From Natronorubrum aibiense (GTDB taxonomy: Archaea; Halobacteriota; Halobacteria; Halobacteriales; Natrialbaceae), in NCBI RefSeq assembly GCF_009392895.1, contig NZ_CP045489.1, forward strand, positions 1 to 64,000: a stretch of DNA of 64,000 nt, read 5' to 3'. Shown here in pieces: positions 1,163-25,653 of the stretch; the first letter of the stretch is position 1; each line of letters begins with the position of its first letter. The notes below the pieces were generated by a model, which saw nothing but the letters and a program-made list of their open reading frames with translations, searched no databases and was not told the DNA's origin. The translations under genes were made by a program, and so were the position numbers.

Positions 1163-1435
1163 CTAGCAGAGTCCGAAAGGACACCCCACCATGTCCACTG
1201 TCTCATCGAGTGCCTCGAGTAGCAAATCAGAATTCGTATCCAGTACATATTCAGAATATCGTCCGCCAGCTTTCCCTTATGCCGCTTCGTCCGACTTACA
1301 ATCCCTAACATTGCGAGTTCGCCAAGGAGGTCTTGCATTCGATGAGGTACGAGAGGGTCAACCGCAGCTCGGTCACAGACGATTTCATATCGATCCTGAA
1401 CTTGAGTATTGTAGCGAGCAACGAGACCAATTTGG
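1163..1435 (-). pseudogene. orc1/cdc6 C-terminal remnant (winged-helix part)
   Basis: In one minus-strand frame the segment reads VQDRYEIVCDRAAVDPL, then RMQDLLGELAMLGIVSRTKR. This matches the winged-helix end of the Orc1/Cdc6 protein encoded at 51944-53185, which has HLAELSMLGILDRTKRNEG. Near 1262 the frame must shift to continue as YSEYVLDTNSDLLLEALDE and then stop at 1163. The AAA+ part is absent. It is a decayed initiator: N-terminal deletion plus at least one frameshift. Its nearest relative within the window appears to be the third initiator rather than the adjacent one. Confidence 0.75.
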
Positions 1436-7760: not shown

Positions 7761-8424
7761 CACCCCGTGTGCGAGATGAAATTGATACAAAAGTGGGGGA
7801 GCGAAAATCACTGAGAAACGCGGGAGCGGCTAAAGTCGTGCATATCATGGAGAGAAGATTCAATACCGAAAGATAAGAAATAGCCTATGTAATAGAAAAG
7901 TTTTATCACCCTTCTCAAAAAACCAAATCCGCACTAGAACTATACTCTGTTTGAGTTGGTATTCAAAATATAAGATTAATTTAAGTTATTCTAGCTTGTA
8001 CGCGCTTCTCTAGACGTTATTTCCTCGGATATCTGCTGTGTTAGGACTTCTACTTCCACTCTGTCTATTGTCTCTTCTATCCTATGCCTCCTACATGTCT
8101 CGCAAATTCATCTCGCACACGGGGTGTGTGGGTTAATCGATTGCCGTGACAACTTCTCATTTCATGTTATTTTTCATTTAGAAATACTAGATAATGCATA
8201 GTCAGTTTCTCCTGGCCTGTGCAGTAGAACATCGATCGCGATCTCACTTTGCACATGGTATATCTGTGCCAATGTCTCCTCTGAGTTCTCTCTGTCAATT
8301 TCATCTCGCACACGGGGGGTACTTGCCAATTTGACTTCGCCCGCGGTTCGATGGGTTCTCGTAAAGACTGCCTATACTCCGCTTATAACCCAAGAATTCG
8401 TCGTATTTAACCTCGCACGCGGTT
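7761..8424. repeat. Origin boxes, family 2, upstream cluster
   Basis: Box TTCATCTCGCACACGGGGTG: 7761-7780 (inverted, perfect), 8107-8126 (perfect), 8300-8319 (ends GGGGGG), and weaker copies at 8331-8350 and 8405-8424. AT-rich DNA (about 7850-8000) separates the inverted first box from the rest, the likely unwinding region. The last box abuts the TATA box of the orc gene at 8463, so the initiator may repress itself. None of these boxes resembles family 1 beyond the G-rich end. Confidence 0.85.
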
Positions 8425-8430
8425 TCCATA

Positions 8431-8462
8431 TCTATATATGGAATGGACTACATGTCGATAAC
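8431..8462 (+). promoter_or_regulatory. Promoter of second orc gene
   Basis: TCTATATATG at 8431-8440 is a good archaeal TATA box centred about 28 nt before the ATG at 8463. This fits leaderless transcription and settles the start among several upstream in-frame possibilities. A degenerate origin box (8405-8424) overlaps the BRE side. Confidence 0.6.
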
Positions 8463-9809
8463 ATGTCTGACGGTGATGAGCAGCAGTCTCTCTCACAGTC
8501 CATCAAAGGCCGTCTTCAAGAGGGGGTTCAGAACTCTGTTTTCAAAGACAAAGGACTCCTTGATCCAGATACCGTCATTGACGAAGACAGGATTGTTGGC
8601 CGTGACCAGCAACTGGACGATATTATCACCTATCTCCGACCGGCGCTTCAAGGTAACCGCCCTCCGAACATGCTTCTCTACGGTCCATCGGGAACGGGCA
8701 AATCGCTCATCATTAACGCAGTCTGTCAGCAAGTTCAGGAGTTGGCAAACGCTCAGGGAGACCGATTCGGTGTAATCAGAGTTAACTGCCAGACTATCAA
8801 GTCTCACGATCGGGCTGTCTATCGACTCGTCGAAAATGCGGCAATCGGAGTCGGTATTGATCCTGGAGTTCCGGAGAGCGGCGTCTCGACTGACCAGAAA
8901 CTGAACCGATTTTACGAAATCTTGAGTGAGAACTTCGACTCTGTTATTATCATCCTTGATGAGGTTGATCTCCTTGTTGGCCGCCAACGTGATCCGAATG
9001 ATGAGCCAGCCTACTCCAAGTTACTCTATCAACTCTCTCGTGCATCTCAGTTAGGTCGAATCGAGGGAGATGTCTCAGTGGCTGCACTCACGAACGATCC
9101 ACGGTTCATGGAGAACCTCGATGGACGGGCGGAGAGCTCGTTTAATCCACAAGATATCGTGTTCTCAGATTACGATGCGAATCAACTACAAGCGATCCTC
9201 GGACGTCGTCGCGACGCTTACCGAGATGATGTCCTCGAGGATGGAATTATCCCACTCAGTTCAGCGTATGCTGCTCAGGATCACGGTGATGCACGGAAAG
9301 CGATCGACCTTTTCCGGAAGGCTGGTGAGATTGCGGATCGCCAAGGCGAAGACAGGGTTCGCGAAGAACACGTTCGAGGCGCTCAAAAAGAAGCTGAGCG
9401 TGACCGCACCCTAACACAAATGCAAGGGCTTTCGACGCAAAAGAAGCTCTCACTCTATGCGACCGCTATCGTTCCTGTCTATTCCTCTCGGAATCTAAAC
9501 GCTATCCCTAGCACTGTCGCGTACCGTGTGTATCAGTATATTACGGATATCTTGGATACTGATGAGAAATCGCGCGATTCTTATCTTCGGTACATGAGCG
9601 AAGCAGAGACCTACAATTTTGTCACGTCTGATAAACGAGGACGAGGCTACGGAAGCGGTGTTCATAAAGAATACACGTTTGTCGATGACCCCGAAGTTGT
9701 TGCTGAAACTCTTCAATCAGACATCCGACTTGAGGAAATCGAGAACGACGAGGATCTAATCAGGTCCGTCGTTAACGCCCAGATAAGTGATTTCTTCGAT
9801 GGAAAATAG
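8463..9809 (+). CDS. orc: Orc1/Cdc6 replication initiator (origin family 2)
   Basis: AAA+ initiator of about 448 residues beginning MSDGDEQQ. Walker A is LLYGPSGTGKS, Walker B is SVIIILDEVDLLVG, with IVFSDYDANQLQAILGRRRD and HGDARKAIDLFRKAGEIA as in the other Orc1/Cdc6 proteins, and a C-terminal winged helix from about 350 (KLSLYATAIVPVYSSR) with a longer acidic tail than the first initiator. The start is fixed by the TATA box at 8431-8440. It is flanked by family-2 boxes on both sides, so gene and origin form one unit independent of the first. Roles: origin binding and helicase loading. Confidence 0.93.
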   Translation: MSDGDEQQSLSQSIKGRLQEGVQNSVFKDKGLLDPDTVIDEDRIVGRDQQLDDIITYLRPALQGNRPPNMLLYGPSGTGKSLIINAVCQQVQELANAQGDRFGVIRVNCQTIKSHDRAVYRLVENAAIGVGIDPGVPESGVSTDQKLNRFYEILSENFDSVIIILDEVDLLVGRQRDPNDEPAYSKLLYQLSRASQLGRIEGDVSVAALTNDPRFMENLDGRAESSFNPQDIVFSDYDANQLQAILGRRRDAYRDDVLEDGIIPLSSAYAAQDHGDARKAIDLFRKAGEIADRQGEDRVREEHVRGAQKEAERDRTLTQMQGLSTQKKLSLYATAIVPVYSSRNLNAIPSTVAYRVYQYITDILDTDEKSRDSYLRYMSEAETYNFVTSDKRGRGYGSGVHKEYTFVDDPEVVAETLQSDIRLEEIENDEDLIRSVVNAQISDFFDGK

Positions 9810-11224: not shown

Positions 11225-11548
11225 CTAACTCTCCGAATCGACTGGACCTTTGTACTTCGACTTAATCTTCTCACCCTCTCTCCACTGCCAGTAGTAGTAG
11301 CGATTGTCGTTGATCTCCTTCACCGTGATCGTTGCCTTCGATGGGACATCATCCGGAAAATCCTCTGATCGCTCTTCGACCACCTCGTTCTCTTCGTTTT
11401 CTGTTAGTCGTGCCTCTCGCTCACGGTATTCAGCGAGCTCTTTGGAGTACCTAGCGACGTGCCGAAGGAGTTTGGGCGAGAAATCGTCAAATGTTTCGAG
11501 GATGCCGGTGGGAAGTTCTTGCGGGGGTGTCGGTGGCTCACAGGACAT
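11225..11548 (-). CDS. Haloarchaeal DUF6788-like protein (107 aa)
   Basis: MSCEPPTPPQELPTGILETF, a charged helical middle (YSKELAEYREREARLTENEE), and a C-terminal strand-rich module KATITVKEINDNRYYYWQWR followed by EGEKIKSKYKGPV. This resembles the DUF6788 module of small haloarchaeal plasmid proteins, a hypothesis from memory. It is a single gene with no operon partner in range. Function unknown. Confidence 0.6.
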   Translation of the reverse strand: MSCEPPTPPQELPTGILETFDDFSPKLLRHVARYSKELAEYREREARLTENEENEVVEERSEDFPDDVPSKATITVKEINDNRYYYWQWREGEKIKSKYKGPVDSES

Positions 11549-11697
11549 GGTAACTCAATCTGTGTTAACCAACAAAGAACGTCAACAGTATAATGCCGTT
11601 GGTTAAGAATGTTCCTTGTCGTTCTCTCTCAACTCTCTCTTCTGGAGTAACACTACTCGAAACTCATTTATAAATAGGTTACGTACTATGTTACAAC

Positions 11698-17797: not shown

Positions 17798-17920
17798 TTC
17801 AGAGACGGTGTAACCGTCAGCACAGTGGCGCCAAACCGTTGTCCCGACCGGATCGAGCGTGAGTTCGCGTTCTCGGATTGTTTCGAGGAAAACGTCCTTG
17901 CTACTACTTTCGGATTTCAA
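17720..17920 (-). pseudogene. PqqD-like N-terminal fragment
   Basis: The frame from 17920 reads ERELTLDPVGTTVWRHCADG, then YTVSEL, like the strand-helix core of PqqD-type peptide chaperones. After about residue 40 it turns into plain antisense of the carotenoid oxygenase end. It overlaps the helicase stop by 17 nt. It is most likely a truncated remnant. Confidence 0.3.
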
Positions 17921-20741
17921 GAAGTTCCGCTAGATCTTCCTTTGAAACCGGCTCAATCTCGACTCGATCATTCGTCGCCGAATAATAGATCGAGGCACTC
18001 ACGTCTCGAGTTTCGAACCAGTCATCGAGTGCGTGATAGTACACGCTGAGCTGCGTTCGATATTCCGACTCTGCGTGGCGCTCCTGATCGGTTTTGTAAT
18101 CGATTATCCCTACCCGGTCGGATGTCACATGAACCAGATCCACAACCCCGGAGATTGTCACCTGCTCACCAGCAACCTCGAGCGGCAGATACGCCTGTTC
18201 TTCAACCCTGAGAGCCCCCTCGAGCGAATCGAGAAGCTCCTTGATATTCCGTTCGTCGGCGTTTCGAGGATCAACGTCTTCTCCAAGAGCATACTGTTCG
18301 GCGAACTCGTGGACTGACGACCCAAACTCTCGTCCTCTCCCATCAGCGACACCGCTGTAGACCGTATCGTCCATTAGCGAGTGAGGCGAGTATCCCTCTG
18401 GACCGTTCGGCTGTGGGATCGACACGGTCAATTGGGATTGGACGGTGTCTCCGACACGATCGGTGTCAACTGCTGGCTCGAGTGGGTCGATGTCGACAGA
18501 CAACTCCTCGAAGAACGTATTCGGGTCGTCACCAGCCGAAAACAGCAGGTGATCTTTTGCTCGCGTCATTGCGACGTAGAGCAATCGGCGCTCCTCGTCG
18601 GCCTCCGTTGGCTGACACCGTCTCAGGACGTCAGTCCGCCAATTATCATAGACGTGGGGGTCGCCATGGGCCTCAGCATAGCACTTGCGCTGGCGAACCC
18701 CTATGAGTTCAGAGTACGTGATCGTCCCATCCTGTCCGCCAGCAGGGGGAAACTTCCCGCTGTTCATGTTCCCAAGAATCACGATCGGATGCTCGAGTCC
18801 CTTGGCCGAGTGGATGGTCTGGACCGTGATTGCGTTGGTCCCTGCTGCAGCGTGTACCTCCTCGGTGTGTCCGGACTCGATCCCGCGTTCGATGAATCGG
18901 ATCAGATCACCGAGGGTCATCGTCGTCGCGCTGTGAACCAACTGAATCGTCGTGAGGATAACGTCTGCTGTTGCCCCGTCGTACCCGTAGCGATCGAATA
19001 TCCGTCGCACAATGGCGTTCGTGGTCTCGAGTGCTGCGAGCTCTGTGCAGAACGCCGCCATATTTTCTGGGTAGGCCTCGTGCTCGAGGATGTGGTCGAT
19101 CTCGTCGAGTGTGTAGCCAGCATGCTCGAGGACGACCGCCCAGCCTCTGTCTGCATCAGTCTCGAGAATACGCAACCAGGCGAGCAGGAGTTTGGCCTGA
19201 TTTGTCCGGAAGAGTTCGATACCGCCCTCGTACGCCATCGGTAGCTCGTATTCTTCGGCGACGGAAAGCAGATCGCGACCGAAATCTCGTGTTCGAGTCA
19301 ATACTGCGATATCATCATACTCCGGGGTTCGAAGTTCGCCATCTTCTTCGACTGCATAGGCATTGTTCCCGACGATTTCCTGAATCTTCGTCAGGATCGC
19401 TTCGTGTTCATCGTCGTGCTGGAAGGCTTCGATCTGTGAGTGTTCGTGTTCGGTATTCGATGCTAGTGAGACGACCTGCTCGAGTATCGACTCTCGATCG
19501 ATGGACTCACGGCTACTCGCTGGGGTTACGAGAGCGCGCTCCGAGAAATCGAGGATCTCCTGAGTCGACCGGTAGTTTTGCTCGAGTTCGATTCTGGTTA
19601 TCGGCTCGACCGGGAACGAAACGCGTTCGGCGTCATCGTTCAGGTCGGTCGTGAATCGCTCGAGACGTGAGTCGAATTCCGTGATGTTCTCGATCGCGGC
19701 ATACTGGAAGGAGTAGATACTCTGCTTCCAGTCGCCAACGACGCAGATATTGTCCGTCCCGGCAAGTAGCAGCGAGAGTTTGAACTGAATCTCACTCGAG
19801 TCCTGGAACTCATCGATCATCACGTACTCAAACTCCAGTGACTCGCGGAGTTCGTCGTCCTCACAGAGAAGGACGAACGCGAAGAGCTGGAGGAACGAGA
19901 AGTTCAGGTAGTTTCGCCGGAGTGCGAACTCTATATACTCGAGGTAGATATCGTGGATGAATTCGATGAGGTGCTCGCGGTCCTCGTCGAAGACGCGTTC
20001 AGCGACCTCGTCGGAGACCGCCTTCGTGCCACGTGGCCCTCGCAGCTCCGATCGATCGGGTGCATCAGGGAGATAGCACTTGTTTCTGCCGTATCGGCCG
20101 AGCTTTGAGCGCAGTTTCGACTGTTTGCTGCCCCCGTTTCGAGGCTGATTCACCTCATCGAATATGTCTTTGAACGCGTCGAAGTCGCCCTCGAGGTGTC
20201 TCTTACTGTCGCGATACCAGCTGTCGGCAGTCGGGAAGACGCCTTTGGCCGCGAGATTGTTAATGAGCCCCAGCAACTCGGTTGGATTTGAGACGCACCT
20301 GAACAGATCGTCGTATTCGGAATGTTCGTCGGTGAACTGGTTGATGAACTCCCCGAAGTACTCACGCTCGATCGTCTCGTTCTCGAGGATCTGCGTTGAG
20401 CTAGTGATTGCATCATCGATCCCTAAATGCGTGGGCGCATGGAAGCCGTGTTGCTCGAGGATATCGTTACAGAGACTGTGGAAGGTTTGGATCGGTGCGT
20501 CCTTCAGCGCCCGCATATCGTAGTCGCAGTTGGCGACGATGCGGTCTTTCATCTCCGTCGCTGCGTTGCGAGTGAACGTGATCAACAGGACATCATCCGG
20601 TTCCACGTCGTCTTGGGAGACGATATTCGCGTAGCGGTGGGTGACTGTGAACGTCTTGCCGGTCCCAGCGCCAGCATCAACGAGATACAAACCCTCCGTG
20701 CTCTCGATGAGTTCGCGCTGTTTTGGATTCGGTGCCGTCAT
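17904..20741 (-). CDS. UvrD/AddA-like helicase with C-terminal RecB-type nuclease
   Basis: 945 residues, superfamily-1A helicase. Walker A DAGAGTGKTFTVTHRY (about 22), motif Ia LLITFTRNAATEM, Walker B YVMIDEFQDSSEIQ (about 310), motif III VVGDWKQSIYSF, motif IV NYRSTQEILDFS, motif V HSAKGLEHPIVILGN and motif VI LLYVAMTRAKDHLLFS. The C-terminus holds a PD-(D/E)XK nuclease: GSSVHEFAEQ, then SGVVDLVHV and IIDYKTDQ (about 830-890). It overlaps the AddB-like gene by 4 nt, so the two form an AddAB/RecBCD-like double-strand-break resection machine, for recombination repair or destruction of foreign DNA. Confidence 0.88.
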   Translation of the reverse strand: MTAPNPKQRELIESTEGLYLVDAGAGTGKTFTVTHRYANIVSQDDVEPDDVLLITFTRNAATEMKDRIVANCDYDMRALKDAPIQTFHSLCNDILEQHGFHAPTHLGIDDAITSSTQILENETIEREYFGEFINQFTDEHSEYDDLFRCVSNPTELLGLINNLAAKGVFPTADSWYRDSKRHLEGDFDAFKDIFDEVNQPRNGGSKQSKLRSKLGRYGRNKCYLPDAPDRSELRGPRGTKAVSDEVAERVFDEDREHLIEFIHDIYLEYIEFALRRNYLNFSFLQLFAFVLLCEDDELRESLEFEYVMIDEFQDSSEIQFKLSLLLAGTDNICVVGDWKQSIYSFQYAAIENITEFDSRLERFTTDLNDDAERVSFPVEPITRIELEQNYRSTQEILDFSERALVTPASSRESIDRESILEQVVSLASNTEHEHSQIEAFQHDDEHEAILTKIQEIVGNNAYAVEEDGELRTPEYDDIAVLTRTRDFGRDLLSVAEEYELPMAYEGGIELFRTNQAKLLLAWLRILETDADRGWAVVLEHAGYTLDEIDHILEHEAYPENMAAFCTELAALETTNAIVRRIFDRYGYDGATADVILTTIQLVHSATTMTLGDLIRFIERGIESGHTEEVHAAAGTNAITVQTIHSAKGLEHPIVILGNMNSGKFPPAGGQDGTITYSELIGVRQRKCYAEAHGDPHVYDNWRTDVLRRCQPTEADEERRLLYVAMTRAKDHLLFSAGDDPNTFFEELSVDIDPLEPAVDTDRVGDTVQSQLTVSIPQPNGPEGYSPHSLMDDTVYSGVADGRGREFGSSVHEFAEQYALGEDVDPRNADERNIKELLDSLEGALRVEEQAYLPLEVAGEQVTISGVVDLVHVTSDRVGIIDYKTDQERHAESEYRTQLSVYYHALDDWFETRDVSASIYYSATNDRVEIEPVSKEDLAELLEIRK

Positions 20742-23365
20742 CGGATCACCTCCGTCTCGTCGGCCGGTTCATCGGTCGCACGCTCTGTCGTCAAAATCAT
20801 ATCGCGGTTGTCCACATATCGGTAGTTCGGCTCACCTGCTCGTCCGGCGACGGGGAACCGAGAGTCGCCGCGGCGATATCGGTTCAGTTCCTCGAGTTGA
20901 TCATCGATGAACCGCTCGAATTCATCGAGATCCTCGACGAAGTAGCCCTCTTTGCGATAGCCACACAGGTGTCTGAATGCCTGCATGCAGCCGTTTGTGA
21001 CGTACTTGTAGTCGCCGACAGCCTCGATCATCCGCTCGAGAAGTTCGTTCCCGAACGGAGAATCGGCCATCTCATCTGCATCTCGTGTTCTGGGTGGTTG
21101 GTGAGCGTCGAACGCTGCCCGATACTCCTCGTAGCTCGTCTTCGAGAACGTCTTGTTGCAGTCGTTCGGTGCCTCTTCGCGGAGCGCTTCGAAGACGGCT
21201 CGTGACTGTACGAATTCGTCGAACGGGATTGGATGGTACGTGATCGTCGTCAGGCAGTCATCGAGAGTCCCCTCGCCTGTGACGACATCGTCGAGCGTCT
21301 CGAGGAAGTGGAAGAAGGTGAACTCGAGCTGTTCGTCTGGCCGCTGGCTCCGATAGTAGGTGAGATAGAGTAACGCCTGGAAGTTCGGCTGATCGCTCGG
21401 TGGATCAATTGCTGCGCGTTTGATTACCTGCGACGATGATTTCTTGCTGCCACTTTTGAAGTCGACCAGCTGTGTCGGCGACTGTACGAGGTCGATCTTC
21501 CCTTTGATCCCACGGTCGTCGTCCTCGAACCACCGTTCGGTCGCTGGGGAATCAACTGGTCGGTCAAAGTATGTCGCAAAGAAATTCTCACTGCTACTTG
21601 TCGGTGTGAGGAAGTCGGTATCCGACGGCGTATTCTCCTCGAGGTAGTCGACGATCGTCTCGAGGCCAACGCGATACTTCGTTCGTCGGGTGGCGAGATC
21701 GACATCACGGTGGAATGGCCGTGTCTCCTCGATCATGACATCGACGACCTCCTCGGTGACAGCGTCATCGACGAACTCGGGATGGTTGACGACGAACTCT
21801 GCAAAGTCGTGGAAGAGGGTCCCCTCGAGGAAATAATCCTTGTCGGGGTTGTCGACGAGCCGTCCGAAAAAGTAGTCTCGAGGGCAGTTAGCGTACGAAT
21901 TCAGACTCGACTGGCTGAGTGTTGTCTCTGGCTCGGTTTCGACACTGATCGGCTCCTTCTCGAATCCTTCTTCTGTCGATCGGAACGTTCGCGAATACCG
22001 AATCGACTCTAAATCGCTGAAGCGTTCGAACTCGACGTCAAGAAGGTCTTCGAAGTATAGACATGGCGTTACAGGCGCCCCACCAGCGGTATCTTGAACG
22101 AGATAGTACTGATCAACACCGCTCTGAAGCAGCGACTGGAACTGGTCGAGGTTGCGGTCGAACTCTTCGTCACGATCGACCCATGGTCGCTGCGGTGACT
22201 TGTGAGTCCAACGCTCGTCGAGCCCGAGGTAGAAGACAACTGGTCGATCGACAAACGATGCTGATTTCGCATCGGCAAGGAGGACGCCGTCGTTTTCCCG
22301 GTCGATCGGGACATCGTAGGTCTCGAGGTAGAATGTGAGTCGGTCGATAGTATCTGCGGTGATCGGTTCGTTGAGGAGTCCGAGCCGTTCGAGTTCCGCT
22401 CGGAACGTCTCGAGCGTACACGCAGCGTGTTTCTCGTAGGTGTCTAGTGCGTCGCCGATCGTGAGCTCTGCTGCTCGATTGCGGAAATCATGAAGCCACT
22501 CGAGCTCGGGGTCATCGACCTCGAAGAGACGCTTTTCGTTGTGGTCGACGTCGATGGTCGTTCCGAGACGTGTTAGGAGCGGTTTCACGGTTCCGATACG
22601 AGTATCGGATCCCGCAATCGCACTGCGGAGAAGCTGGATGACGGCTCGGTGATCCTGATCGTCGGTGAACGATGGACCGCCGTAGTATGGGATCTCTGTG
22701 GCTTCGAACGCTGCCTCGATGAGTGGCGAATACTCACTACTCGCATCGAGAACGACTGCAATATCCTCGGCGTTCTCTGTGGTAACCGTATCGAGGACAG
22801 CATCGACGATTGCTGCCGGTGAGTCAAAGATTCGGACAGGCGGTAACTCGAATGAGTCGTCACAGAAGCGATTGATAGCGTCGTATTCCGTGGGGAGGAT
22901 CGATCGCTCGAGATTCGTCAGTTGCTGTTCACCGATGACGGCCACTGATTCGTATTCCTCGCAGTCGATCTGATACTCAGTGAGCGTTCGCGACGTTGTT
23001 TCGAGTGATTCGATGCAGTCGACGACAGTCCGTGTTTCCGGTGTATCGAACGCATCGTACTCGAGAATTGCATCGGGACTGCCCTGATACTCCCAGCACT
23101 GCAGCACGTTCCCGATCGCATAGGACGCCTGCTTCCAGTTGAGATCGGTTTGACTGATGACCTCGAGGAAGGCCAGCCGGTCTTCTGCTGTTTCTCGGCG
23201 TCTGGCAGCGAGTCGGCGTGGCGTAATCGCGAACGGGCCGAAGTGGGGGTGCTCGAGACGTCGATTGAGTGCACTTGCTAACGGGGCGTCGGGGACGATG
23301 ACGAGATCGTATTCGGCTACCTCCTCGTATAGCCGATCGATTGGTTTCGACCGCTTGATTGACAC
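20738..23365 (-). CDS. AddB-like nuclease subunit
   Basis: 875 residues. The first two thirds resemble an inactivated helicase scaffold, as in AddB. The C-terminal PD-(D/E)XK nuclease begins SQSSLNSYANCPRDYFFGRL and has GTLFHDFAEFV, KGKIDLVQ and LVDFKSGSKKSS with the catalytic D and K. A cysteine before the nuclease (NCPRD) and a later group (GCMQAFRHLCGY) are placed like the iron-sulfur staple cysteines of AddB nucleases; this is an inference. It is the first gene of the pair, and a cluster of family-4 boxes lies just upstream. Confidence 0.82.
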   Translation of the reverse strand: MSIKRSKPIDRLYEEVAEYDLVIVPDAPLASALNRRLEHPHFGPFAITPRRLAARRRETAEDRLAFLEVISQTDLNWKQASYAIGNVLQCWEYQGSPDAILEYDAFDTPETRTVVDCIESLETTSRTLTEYQIDCEEYESVAVIGEQQLTNLERSILPTEYDAINRFCDDSFELPPVRIFDSPAAIVDAVLDTVTTENAEDIAVVLDASSEYSPLIEAAFEATEIPYYGGPSFTDDQDHRAVIQLLRSAIAGSDTRIGTVKPLLTRLGTTIDVDHNEKRLFEVDDPELEWLHDFRNRAAELTIGDALDTYEKHAACTLETFRAELERLGLLNEPITADTIDRLTFYLETYDVPIDRENDGVLLADAKSASFVDRPVVFYLGLDERWTHKSPQRPWVDRDEEFDRNLDQFQSLLQSGVDQYYLVQDTAGGAPVTPCLYFEDLLDVEFERFSDLESIRYSRTFRSTEEGFEKEPISVETEPETTLSQSSLNSYANCPRDYFFGRLVDNPDKDYFLEGTLFHDFAEFVVNHPEFVDDAVTEEVVDVMIEETRPFHRDVDLATRRTKYRVGLETIVDYLEENTPSDTDFLTPTSSSENFFATYFDRPVDSPATERWFEDDDRGIKGKIDLVQSPTQLVDFKSGSKKSSSQVIKRAAIDPPSDQPNFQALLYLTYYRSQRPDEQLEFTFFHFLETLDDVVTGEGTLDDCLTTITYHPIPFDEFVQSRAVFEALREEAPNDCNKTFSKTSYEEYRAAFDAHQPPRTRDADEMADSPFGNELLERMIEAVGDYKYVTNGCMQAFRHLCGYRKEGYFVEDLDEFERFIDDQLEELNRYRRGDSRFPVAGRAGEPNYRYVDNRDMILTTERATDEPADETEVIR

Positions 23366-23449
23366 GATGTACAGACTCTAGTATTCAGCAATAAGTCTGT
23401 ATATCGTGCTACTTGGAACTGTATGATGATATAATTGATATATTCTACA

Positions 23450-23770
23450 CAGACACCTCTATCGATTTGTTTTGATCCAAATCTATGCCCCATCTCAGAA
23501 CCTCGAGATGATCGTAAGTTCCGAGCACACGTTATTCGAGAATTACGGGATAGAAGCGGTATTGAACAAATCGATAGAGGTGCGTCAGAGAATAATCTCA
23601 TCATAATATTCAATGGTATAAATGTCCATGTGTGTCACTGGAACAAATCGATAGGGGTGTGAGACTCCTCGAAAACAAGTCGTTACAGGTTCTATCTTAT
23701 CAATCTAAAACCTCTGGAAACAGGCCTTTGAGTCTCTCTATTGGCAAATCTCATATCGATAGGGGAACCT
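23450..23770. repeat. Family-4 origin-box-like repeats (orphan)
   Basis: Four copies of AACAAATCGATAGGGGTGTG: 23452-23471 (inverted, AGAGG variant), 23565-23584 (AGAGGTGCG), 23642-23661 (perfect) and a weaker one at 23751-23770 (ATCGATAGGGGAACC). The length, G-rich 3' end, mixed orientation and AT-rich spacers (about 23400-23450 and 23590-23640) match the three origin-box families beside the orc genes, yet no initiator is adjacent. They could bind an Orc encoded elsewhere, mark a dead origin, or act as operators of the AddAB-like pair. No gene is seen from 23366 to 24470. Confidence 0.7.
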
Positions 23771-24273
23771 TTTAGCCCCTCTAATGGAAGTCGAACCTCG
23801 ACATCGTGGTTTTCGAGTCGTGGGAGTAGTTCCTCGTCGTACGCCTTTCCGGCGTGGAAGACGGAGCGTGACGTGGAACTCGAGTGAACTCTTGGACAGA
23901 AAACCGCTCTCAGTGGTGTTTCAACCTTTGACTTGTGAGTATCAGCATCCGTGCAGTGGCAGATTTGAACTGTGAACTGATAGTAATGGCGTACAAGATA
24001 TAGAGGATGAGTGCAGCACGCCATCTCCGTTTGTTTCACGCCGCAGGCAGTGAACCATCCGCACACTACACGTGCTTATTGACCGCTGGGATTCCTACCA
24101 ACCAGCGTATCTGTTCGAAGAGTCGTGATGAATACAGAGCGCGAATCGGTCACGGGCTCGGCACCTGCTGTGAGAGAATCGAATCGCTCAGAACAACGTG
24201 CGTATCGTCCACCGAAGTTTGCTGGTATAGACAGTTGAAGAAGTAGTATTGCAAGATAAGGAGGGAAACAAAA

Positions 24274-24471
24274 CCTATAAACAGTACAATCTTGTTGATG
24301 TCGGTATGGTATCTACTTCCCACGCCAATTGCTGGCGTTGGCACGCGTCTTGGGAAGTAGACAGTGGCGCGGTTTAGGGTCAGGCGGGCTTAACCCGGCG
24401 GATTCGACTGCGATGCTCACTCGCTTTCTCAATCGCATTGCCTCCAAAGTGACTACAACTATCAAACACAC
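24274..24471 (+). promoter_or_regulatory. Promoter and long structured 5' leader of trpS
   Basis: TATA-like CCTATAAAC at 24274-24282 puts transcription start near 24304, leaving a leader of about 168 nt in an organism where most genes here look leaderless. The leader can form a 10-bp outer stem CTACTTCCCA (24313-24322) with TGGGAAGTAG (24351-24360), enclosing hairpin ACGCCA-ATTGC-TGGCGT (24322-24338), and a later CGGG-CTTAA-CCCG hairpin. An attenuation or tRNA-sensing role is plausible for a synthetase leader but is inferred only from structure and position. Confidence 0.5.
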
Positions 24472-25653
24472 ATGCCAGCAGAAGACGACTTCACCGTAAC
24501 GCCATACGCCGTCGAAGGCAACATCAACTACGACCGACTCCTAGACAAGTTCGGGGCTGATGCCCTCACTGCCGAGCAGAGGGCTAAGTTCCCCGAACCG
24601 GGCCATCCGCTCGTGCGCCGTGGCGTGTTCTATGCAGAGCGCGACGTAGACCCATTCCTCGATGCCGCCAGCGAAGACAAACTACACTCCATCGTGACGG
24701 GACGTGGCCCCTCGGGGCCGATGCATATCGGTCACATCTTCCCATTCTACTTCGCCAAGTATCTGCAAGACCAGACAGGGACTCTCGTCTACATTCCGTT
24801 CTCCGACGACGAGAAATACTTTCTCAAGGACAAGTCGTTGGAGGAAATCAGCGGCTATACCCGCGAAAATCTCTTTGACCTTCTCGCAGTCGGGTTTGAC
24901 CCCGAACGAACCCGAATCGTCGTAGACACGGCGGACGCTGACGTGGTGTACCCTCTAGCGACTGCATTTGCCAAGGAAGTAACGCAAGCGACCGTGGACG
25001 CAACATACGGGGAACCCGAGAATATCGGTCTCTCGTTCTACCCTGCTGTCCAAGCCACACACCTCCTCCTACCACAACTTGTGGAGGGCCGCCATCCGAC
25101 GCTCGTCCCGATTGCGGTTGACCAAGACCCCCACGTTCGAGTCTGTCGGGACATCGCGGCAAAGGAACGGTACGATGTGGCCAAGCCCGGTGCCTTGCTC
25201 TCGAAATTTCTCCCGAGCCTCGAAGGACCGGGGAAGATGAGTTCGTCCGACGATGCACCGAGTATCCTCCTCTCAGACGACCGGAAGACGGTCTTCGACA
25301 AAATCCGCGCCCATGCTTATTCTGGTGGACAGACGAGTCTCGAAGAACATCGAGAGCAGGGAGGGAACCCTGAGGTAGATGTCTCGTATCAGTTTTTGTA
25401 CTACTTCTTTGAAGAAAGTGATGAGCAGGTAGAACGGCTTGCACGCGAGTATCGAAAGGGGTCACTCCTGAGTGGTGAACTCAAAGATATGGCGGCGAAG
25501 AATATTGCGAACTTTCTCGAAGCACATCACGAACGTCGCAGGGCACTTGGCTCGCTTGAGGACGAGTTGGAACAGTTCCGCTTGACAGAGGATGAGCGAC
25601 AGGTTGCGCGGCGGCGAGCAGGCTACCCCGAGAGTTCTCTGGTTCAGAGATAG
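24472..25653 (+). CDS. trpS: Tryptophanyl-tRNA synthetase (paralogue)
   Basis: 393 residues, archaeal/eukaryotic-type class I TrpRS, which charges tRNA-Trp. The HIGH-type motif is GPSGPMHIGHIFPF (about 80-93) and the KMSKS-type loop is EGPGKMSSSDD (about 250-260). SFYPAVQATHLLLPQ and PIAVDQDPHVRVCRDIA are the usual tryptophan-site elements. The start ATG at 24472 follows CAAACACAC. Haloarchaea often hold two TrpRS genes; one placed between inverted flanks on an accessory replicon is probably the extra copy, possibly inducible or inhibitor-resistant. Codon use resembles the neighbours. Confidence 0.92.
   Translation: MPAEDDFTVTPYAVEGNINYDRLLDKFGADALTAEQRAKFPEPGHPLVRRGVFYAERDVDPFLDAASEDKLHSIVTGRGPSGPMHIGHIFPFYFAKYLQDQTGTLVYIPFSDDEKYFLKDKSLEEISGYTRENLFDLLAVGFDPERTRIVVDTADADVVYPLATAFAKEVTQATVDATYGEPENIGLSFYPAVQATHLLLPQLVEGRHPTLVPIAVDQDPHVRVCRDIAAKERYDVAKPGALLSKFLPSLEGPGKMSSSDDAPSILLSDDRKTVFDKIRAHAYSGGQTSLEEHREQGGNPEVDVSYQFLYYFFEESDEQVERLAREYRKGSLLSGELKDMAAKNIANFLEAHHERRRALGSLEDELEQFRLTEDERQVARRRAGYPESSLVQR

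Follow-up and report, generated by a model that had tools for sequence, protein, structure and literature searches.

The window analyzed here, the first 64,000 nt of Natronorubrum aibiense contig NZ_CP045489.1, carries a cluster of origin-like boxes upstream of a pair of AddAB-like genes. Do these boxes belong to a replication origin, and where is the initiator that would use them? The initial annotation had counted four copies, one of them inverted, within 320 bp. A search with the 20-mer box, allowing up to three mismatches, found three matches in the window, all at 23452-23661 and one inverted (shuffles, 0/100). Box 1 (AACAAATCGATAGAGGTGTC, 23452-23471) is on the minus strand; box 2 (AACAAATCGATAGAGGTGCG, 23565-23584) and box 4 (AACAAATCGATAGGGGTGTG, 23642-23661) are on the plus strand. 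All three share the 18-mer core AACAAATCGATAGRGGTG without a mismatch (23454-23471, minus strand; 23565-23582 and 23642-23659, plus strand). The repeat is therefore real and one copy is inverted, but it has just three strong copies. The fourth, CATATCGATAGGGG at 23752-23765 (plus strand), is degenerate, with a 14-nt core match only and without the GTGTG end. A fifth, weaker copy, AAACAAGTCGTTACAGGTT, is found at 23673-23691 (plus strand). The box segment has an AT content of 60%, compared to 45% for the window, and no Orc gene lies beside it, as had been described. Elsewhere in the 4.35-Mb, four-contig genome, the 18-mer core with up to three mismatches gave no match except one off-target site (C2:147752). 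This site has three mismatches, appears to lie within coding DNA without a box cluster, and was rejected as a further box site.

Of 125 same-family genomes searched for the box, several contain clusters of seven to nine box copies parted by a gap of ~1.5 kb. This gap was predicted, and then found, to encode an Orc1/Cdc6 protein in 12 of the 12 loci examined. Eight of these loci combine this box with a protein of ~444 aa (the gene is named orcX here), and four combine a related box (CACATCGATAG) with a longer relative (456-521 aa as called). The best match of the gap proteins from the 12 loci is the window's Orc at 8331-9809 (OrcB), at 47-51%. An orcX origin has at least one inverted and two to three direct boxes upstream of the gene and three to four boxes downstream. 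A CTAG-rich palindrome follows box 3 in 23 of 25 intact origins, the two without it being from Haloquadratum. In one genome per species (84,980 species), the exact box was found at 26 loci that hold near-full-length orcX, with 78-100% identity to the reference and boxes on one or both sides. The hosts of orcX loci include Haloarcula, Halorubrum, Halogranum, Haladaptatus, Natronococcus, and Natronorubrum. In PLSDB, orcX (84-98% identity) is present on ten plasmid records from different haloarchaea. Blastn of the box segment against plasmids gave no match, and the exact box occurs in 19 stretches of viral contigs with one match apiece. It has been reported previously that Orc families are linked to their own box families and that some orc genes have boxes on both sides (Wu et al., 2012; PMC3528665). 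A stretch of the window (11225-11607), with a 107-aa ORF that has no Pfam match, is found again at the DNA level close to orcX in five other loci (67-71%); the ORF is possibly an origin-associated plasmid gene.

The segment at 23412-23776 (plus strand) aligns in homologous pieces (72-82%) with intact origins of three genomes (G096, G097, and G104). Its right limit is the end of this homology at 23775, and its left limit is the end of the homology among addB orthologs. The closest intact origins are loci L078 and L079, followed by L072 and L073. All four have the same order: one inverted box comes first, then direct boxes and a weak box, and last, right ahead of the start codon, a promoter-proximal box. 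Box 1 of the window aligns with the single inverted box of these four loci and box 2 with box 2 of L072 and L073. Counted from the expected orcX start codon, box 4, the last strong box, starts (CAAATC) at -156, the same position as in L078 and L079 (-157 in L072). The two lesser copies are also kept in intact origins. The weak box at 23673-23691 is conserved, and the degenerate copy at 23752-23765 is homologous to the promoter-proximal box, located at -48, and identical in sequence and position in L078 and L079. The orcX-type box core CAAATCGATAGRGGTG and a promoter-proximal box at -48 are thus both present. Immediately downstream, AACCTTTTAG (23766-23775, plus strand) is the putative core promoter of the lost orcX, and its TTTTAG is invariant in nine aligned origins.

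The alignment runs through the weak and promoter-proximal boxes up to TTTTAG and then breaks. At the junction (23776), the origin homology gives way to a truncated DUF6884 gene coming in from the opposite side. The 3' part of this broken gene reaches the junction at 23777-23905 on the minus strand (profile positions 85-125 of 135); the match has an E value of 0.00038 and 21.1 bits, below the Pfam cut-off of 30. With 12 OrcX proteins as queries, no trace of orcX coding sequence was detected in the window beyond three other Orc genes. The window contains no CTAG-rich palindrome, and none of the three to four downstream boxes is found anywhere in the genome. Box 3 is missing as well, the window going from the counterpart of box 2 straight to box 4. 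The segment was compared with the ori-cdc6 origins of haloarchaea (Wu et al., 2012; PMC3528665), represented by orcX-type origins on plasmids or contigs of Natronorubrum bangense, Natrinema zhouii, Haladaptatus, Halorubrum, and Haloarcula. It resembles them in box sequence, in the order and orientation of inverted and direct boxes, in the weak and promoter-proximal boxes, in start-codon spacing, and in TTTTAG; it differs in having no orc gene, no downstream box cluster, and no CTAG palindrome. On these grounds we read 23412-23776 as the upstream half of a plasmid-type Orc1/Cdc6 origin of the orcX family, now an initiator-less relic, with a probability of about 0.93. The ghost of a lost origin, one of the possibilities raised in the initial annotation, is strongly supported by orthologous intact origins that carry the missing orc gene.

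The boxes at 23452-23765 do have some properties of a functional origin: there are several of one family with a G-rich end, and box 1 is inverted relative to boxes 2 and 4 in AT-rich DNA. An adjacent orc1/cdc6 gene of the matching family is absent; orcX is found neither in the window nor among the 15 Orc1/Cdc6-type matches of this genome. By sequence identity and by tree, none of these 15 proteins belongs to the OrcX clade (best, 48-51%). The full genome was also searched for the repeat next to another orc gene and no such box was found near any of the 15; the proposal that the boxes serve an orc gene elsewhere on the replicon is therefore not borne out. If the boxes were a live origin that a different Orc of the genome fires in trans, the most plausible candidate would be OrcB (8331-9809, plus strand), the closest paralog of OrcX and the sister of its clade in the tree (94/100 support). 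The OrcB boxes have ATCG and a GGGGTG end in common with the boxes studied here, and Haloarcula hispanica Cdc6 proteins were able to serve their own origins in trans (PMC3936714). However, each tested origin in that species needed its own Cdc6 and was specifically recognized by it (PMC3936714), OrcB shares only 48-51% identity with OrcX, and its boxes carry a different core insert (TCGCACACGGGGTG). The window also lacks box 3, the CTAG element, and the downstream boxes. We consider such a live origin very improbable. Several other Orcs of this genome have different box-like repeats and for a few no clear repeat was seen; an in-trans role of another own Orc at these boxes is unlikely. Since no cognate initiator is encoded in the genome, the relic should not fire alone, and it is probably inactive.

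The dead orc remnant at 1163-1435, pointed out in the initial annotation in connection with a lost origin, does exist, but it belongs to a different Orc and so is not the lost initiator. This minus-strand fragment was rejected as the missing orcX; it is nearest to a chromosomal Orc of the same genome, L043 (57% over 44 aa). An Orc C-terminal fragment inside it (1270-1401, minus strand) is closest to the chromosomal Orc at C1:746024 (57% over 44 aa).

None of the 48 positions of the three box cores has changed. In the right part, the window differs from the intact origins at 9 of 80 columns conserved among them; the intact lineages differ from each other at 13 of 84 and 15 of 86 columns. If the cores are neutral, the divergence since the loss is estimated by us at no more than ~6% (3/48 for zero changes). 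Because the cores show no decay and the window diverges no faster than intact lineages, either the loss was recent or something still preserves the boxes; both fit the data equally. With unchanged cores, the relic could in principle remain a binding target for OrcX from an incoming plasmid. The boxes might then be kept as an initiator sink which binds OrcX of incoming related plasmids and cuts their replication (incompatibility or decoy). The box cores are intact although the spacers have diverged, and orcX origins are common on plasmids. Yet no sign of selection on the boxes is evident, recent loss accounts for their intactness equally well, and the few boxes in the window together with scattered relics elsewhere resemble debris, which makes a sink very improbable. 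The broader proposal, that an orphan half-origin is kept for binding invading OrcX, so that it acts in incompatibility, serves as a decoy, or becomes an origin switched on only by the invading plasmid, is given a similarly slim chance.

Such relics of orcX origins are found in other haloarchaea. On a Halogeometricum pallidum contig (contig_35, L151), the upstream boxes are present and a TnpB gene occupies the orcX position. In Halogranum amylolyticum (L180), four boxes are present without an orc gene in 8 kb. Another genome (G111, L241:5340-7303) contains three downstream-type boxes and a C-terminal orcX stump (75-79% identity) adjoining an intact OrcB-like gene, and two more (G112 and G103) have a downstream-type box pair without orc. 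On one Halorubrum ezzemoulense plasmid, the orcX match is in two pieces and an IS1595 transposase is annotated under the match. L241 and L151 share with the window that part of an orcX origin persists without a working orcX; L241 keeps the half opposite to that in the window, and L151 has the TnpB gene in place of orc. The plasmid-type orcX origin thus breaks up repeatedly, leaving upstream or downstream halves.

A literature search on orphan origins of haloarchaea gave no direct report. Non-functional origins have been described in Haloarcula hispanica (PMC4441112): oriC4-cdc6G lost its promoter and 5' coding sequence, oriC5-cdc6H has a split initiator, and oriC3-cdc6D carries a transposase. 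Like the window, these origins lie in variable regions and were broken through loss of or damage to the initiator (PMC4441112). In the window, by contrast, no initiator coding sequence is detected, and the promoter and boxes remain. The H. hispanica oriC2D is likewise a cluster of boxes without initiation activity of its own; it lies downstream of a live cognate cdc6E, whereas the window has no cognate initiator (PMC3936714). The relic adds one more case to a known phenomenon; it does not represent a new control system. The puzzling fourth box family of the window would accordingly be a fossil with a named living counterpart. For annotation, origin boxes by themselves are no mark of a working origin. 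Intact boxes without a cognate initiator also offer a simple system to ask if the initiator of an incoming plasmid acts on resident boxes.

As for how the relic arose, the replicon may once have carried an orcX origin or may have acquired a piece of one. The orcX promoter would have become fused to the DUF6884 remnant by a deletion or recombination, and the half-origin left over would have come to adjoin addAB. A DUF6884 homolog near orcX, sought in relatives as a sign of a simple in-place deletion, was not found. Nor was a close relative identified that has this locus together with an intact orcX, and for this reason in-place deletion and capture of a half-origin are indistinguishable. The DNA at 23912-24153, on the right-hand side of the junction, resembles sequence present in many copies and dispersed over most of the 125 family genomes, 95 of which have some match to 23776-24475. 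This piece gives no indication of the fragment's origin and was rejected as a pointer to its source; it probably represents IS or MITE debris. The stretch at 24248-24475, which lies upstream of the tryptophanyl-tRNA synthetase gene (24472-25653), is 86-87% identical to contig C1 of G079 and G089, and the sequence similarity suggests that this gene may have moved from a chromosome.

On the left side of the relic, addB (20738-23365, minus strand) encodes an AddB-like protein with a PD-(D/E)XK nuclease domain, and 17904-20741 (minus strand) encodes an AddA-like UvrD-type helicase with a nuclease domain. The boxes lie 87-300 bp upstream of addB, a suitable place for operator sites governing the addB-addA promoter. 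However, in seven addB orthologs (89-96% identity), the DNA in common with the window reaches only to ~23408-23411 and excludes the boxes; the conserved upstream region (23366-23411, minus strand), containing an imperfect palindrome, stops short of the first box. No box was found at any addB ortholog promoter, G108 and G072 lack the box, and the box spacing tracks the orcX start and not addB. The repeat is also not a regulator site recurring genome-wide upstream of unrelated genes, as no copy stands upstream of another gene in this genome. Operator sites for addB-addA are thus a hardly credible reading of the boxes, and the sequences compared do not support a conserved role in AddAB control, contrary to the suggested link between control of the helicase-nuclease pair and replication. 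No addAB genes were present at the orcX loci first examined. Given this and the end of the shared addB DNA before the boxes, the proximity of addAB to the boxes is best read as a rearrangement junction. At the addB start, an imperfect palindrome (CACGATGTACAGACT ... AGTCTGTATATCGTG) at 23352-23408 is kept in the orthologs and is more likely than the boxes to be an addB operator. Within 17904-23365, AddB is 89-91% identical to AddB proteins of other genera and 63-79% identical to those of several congeners, which suggests that the AddAB pair was horizontally transferred.
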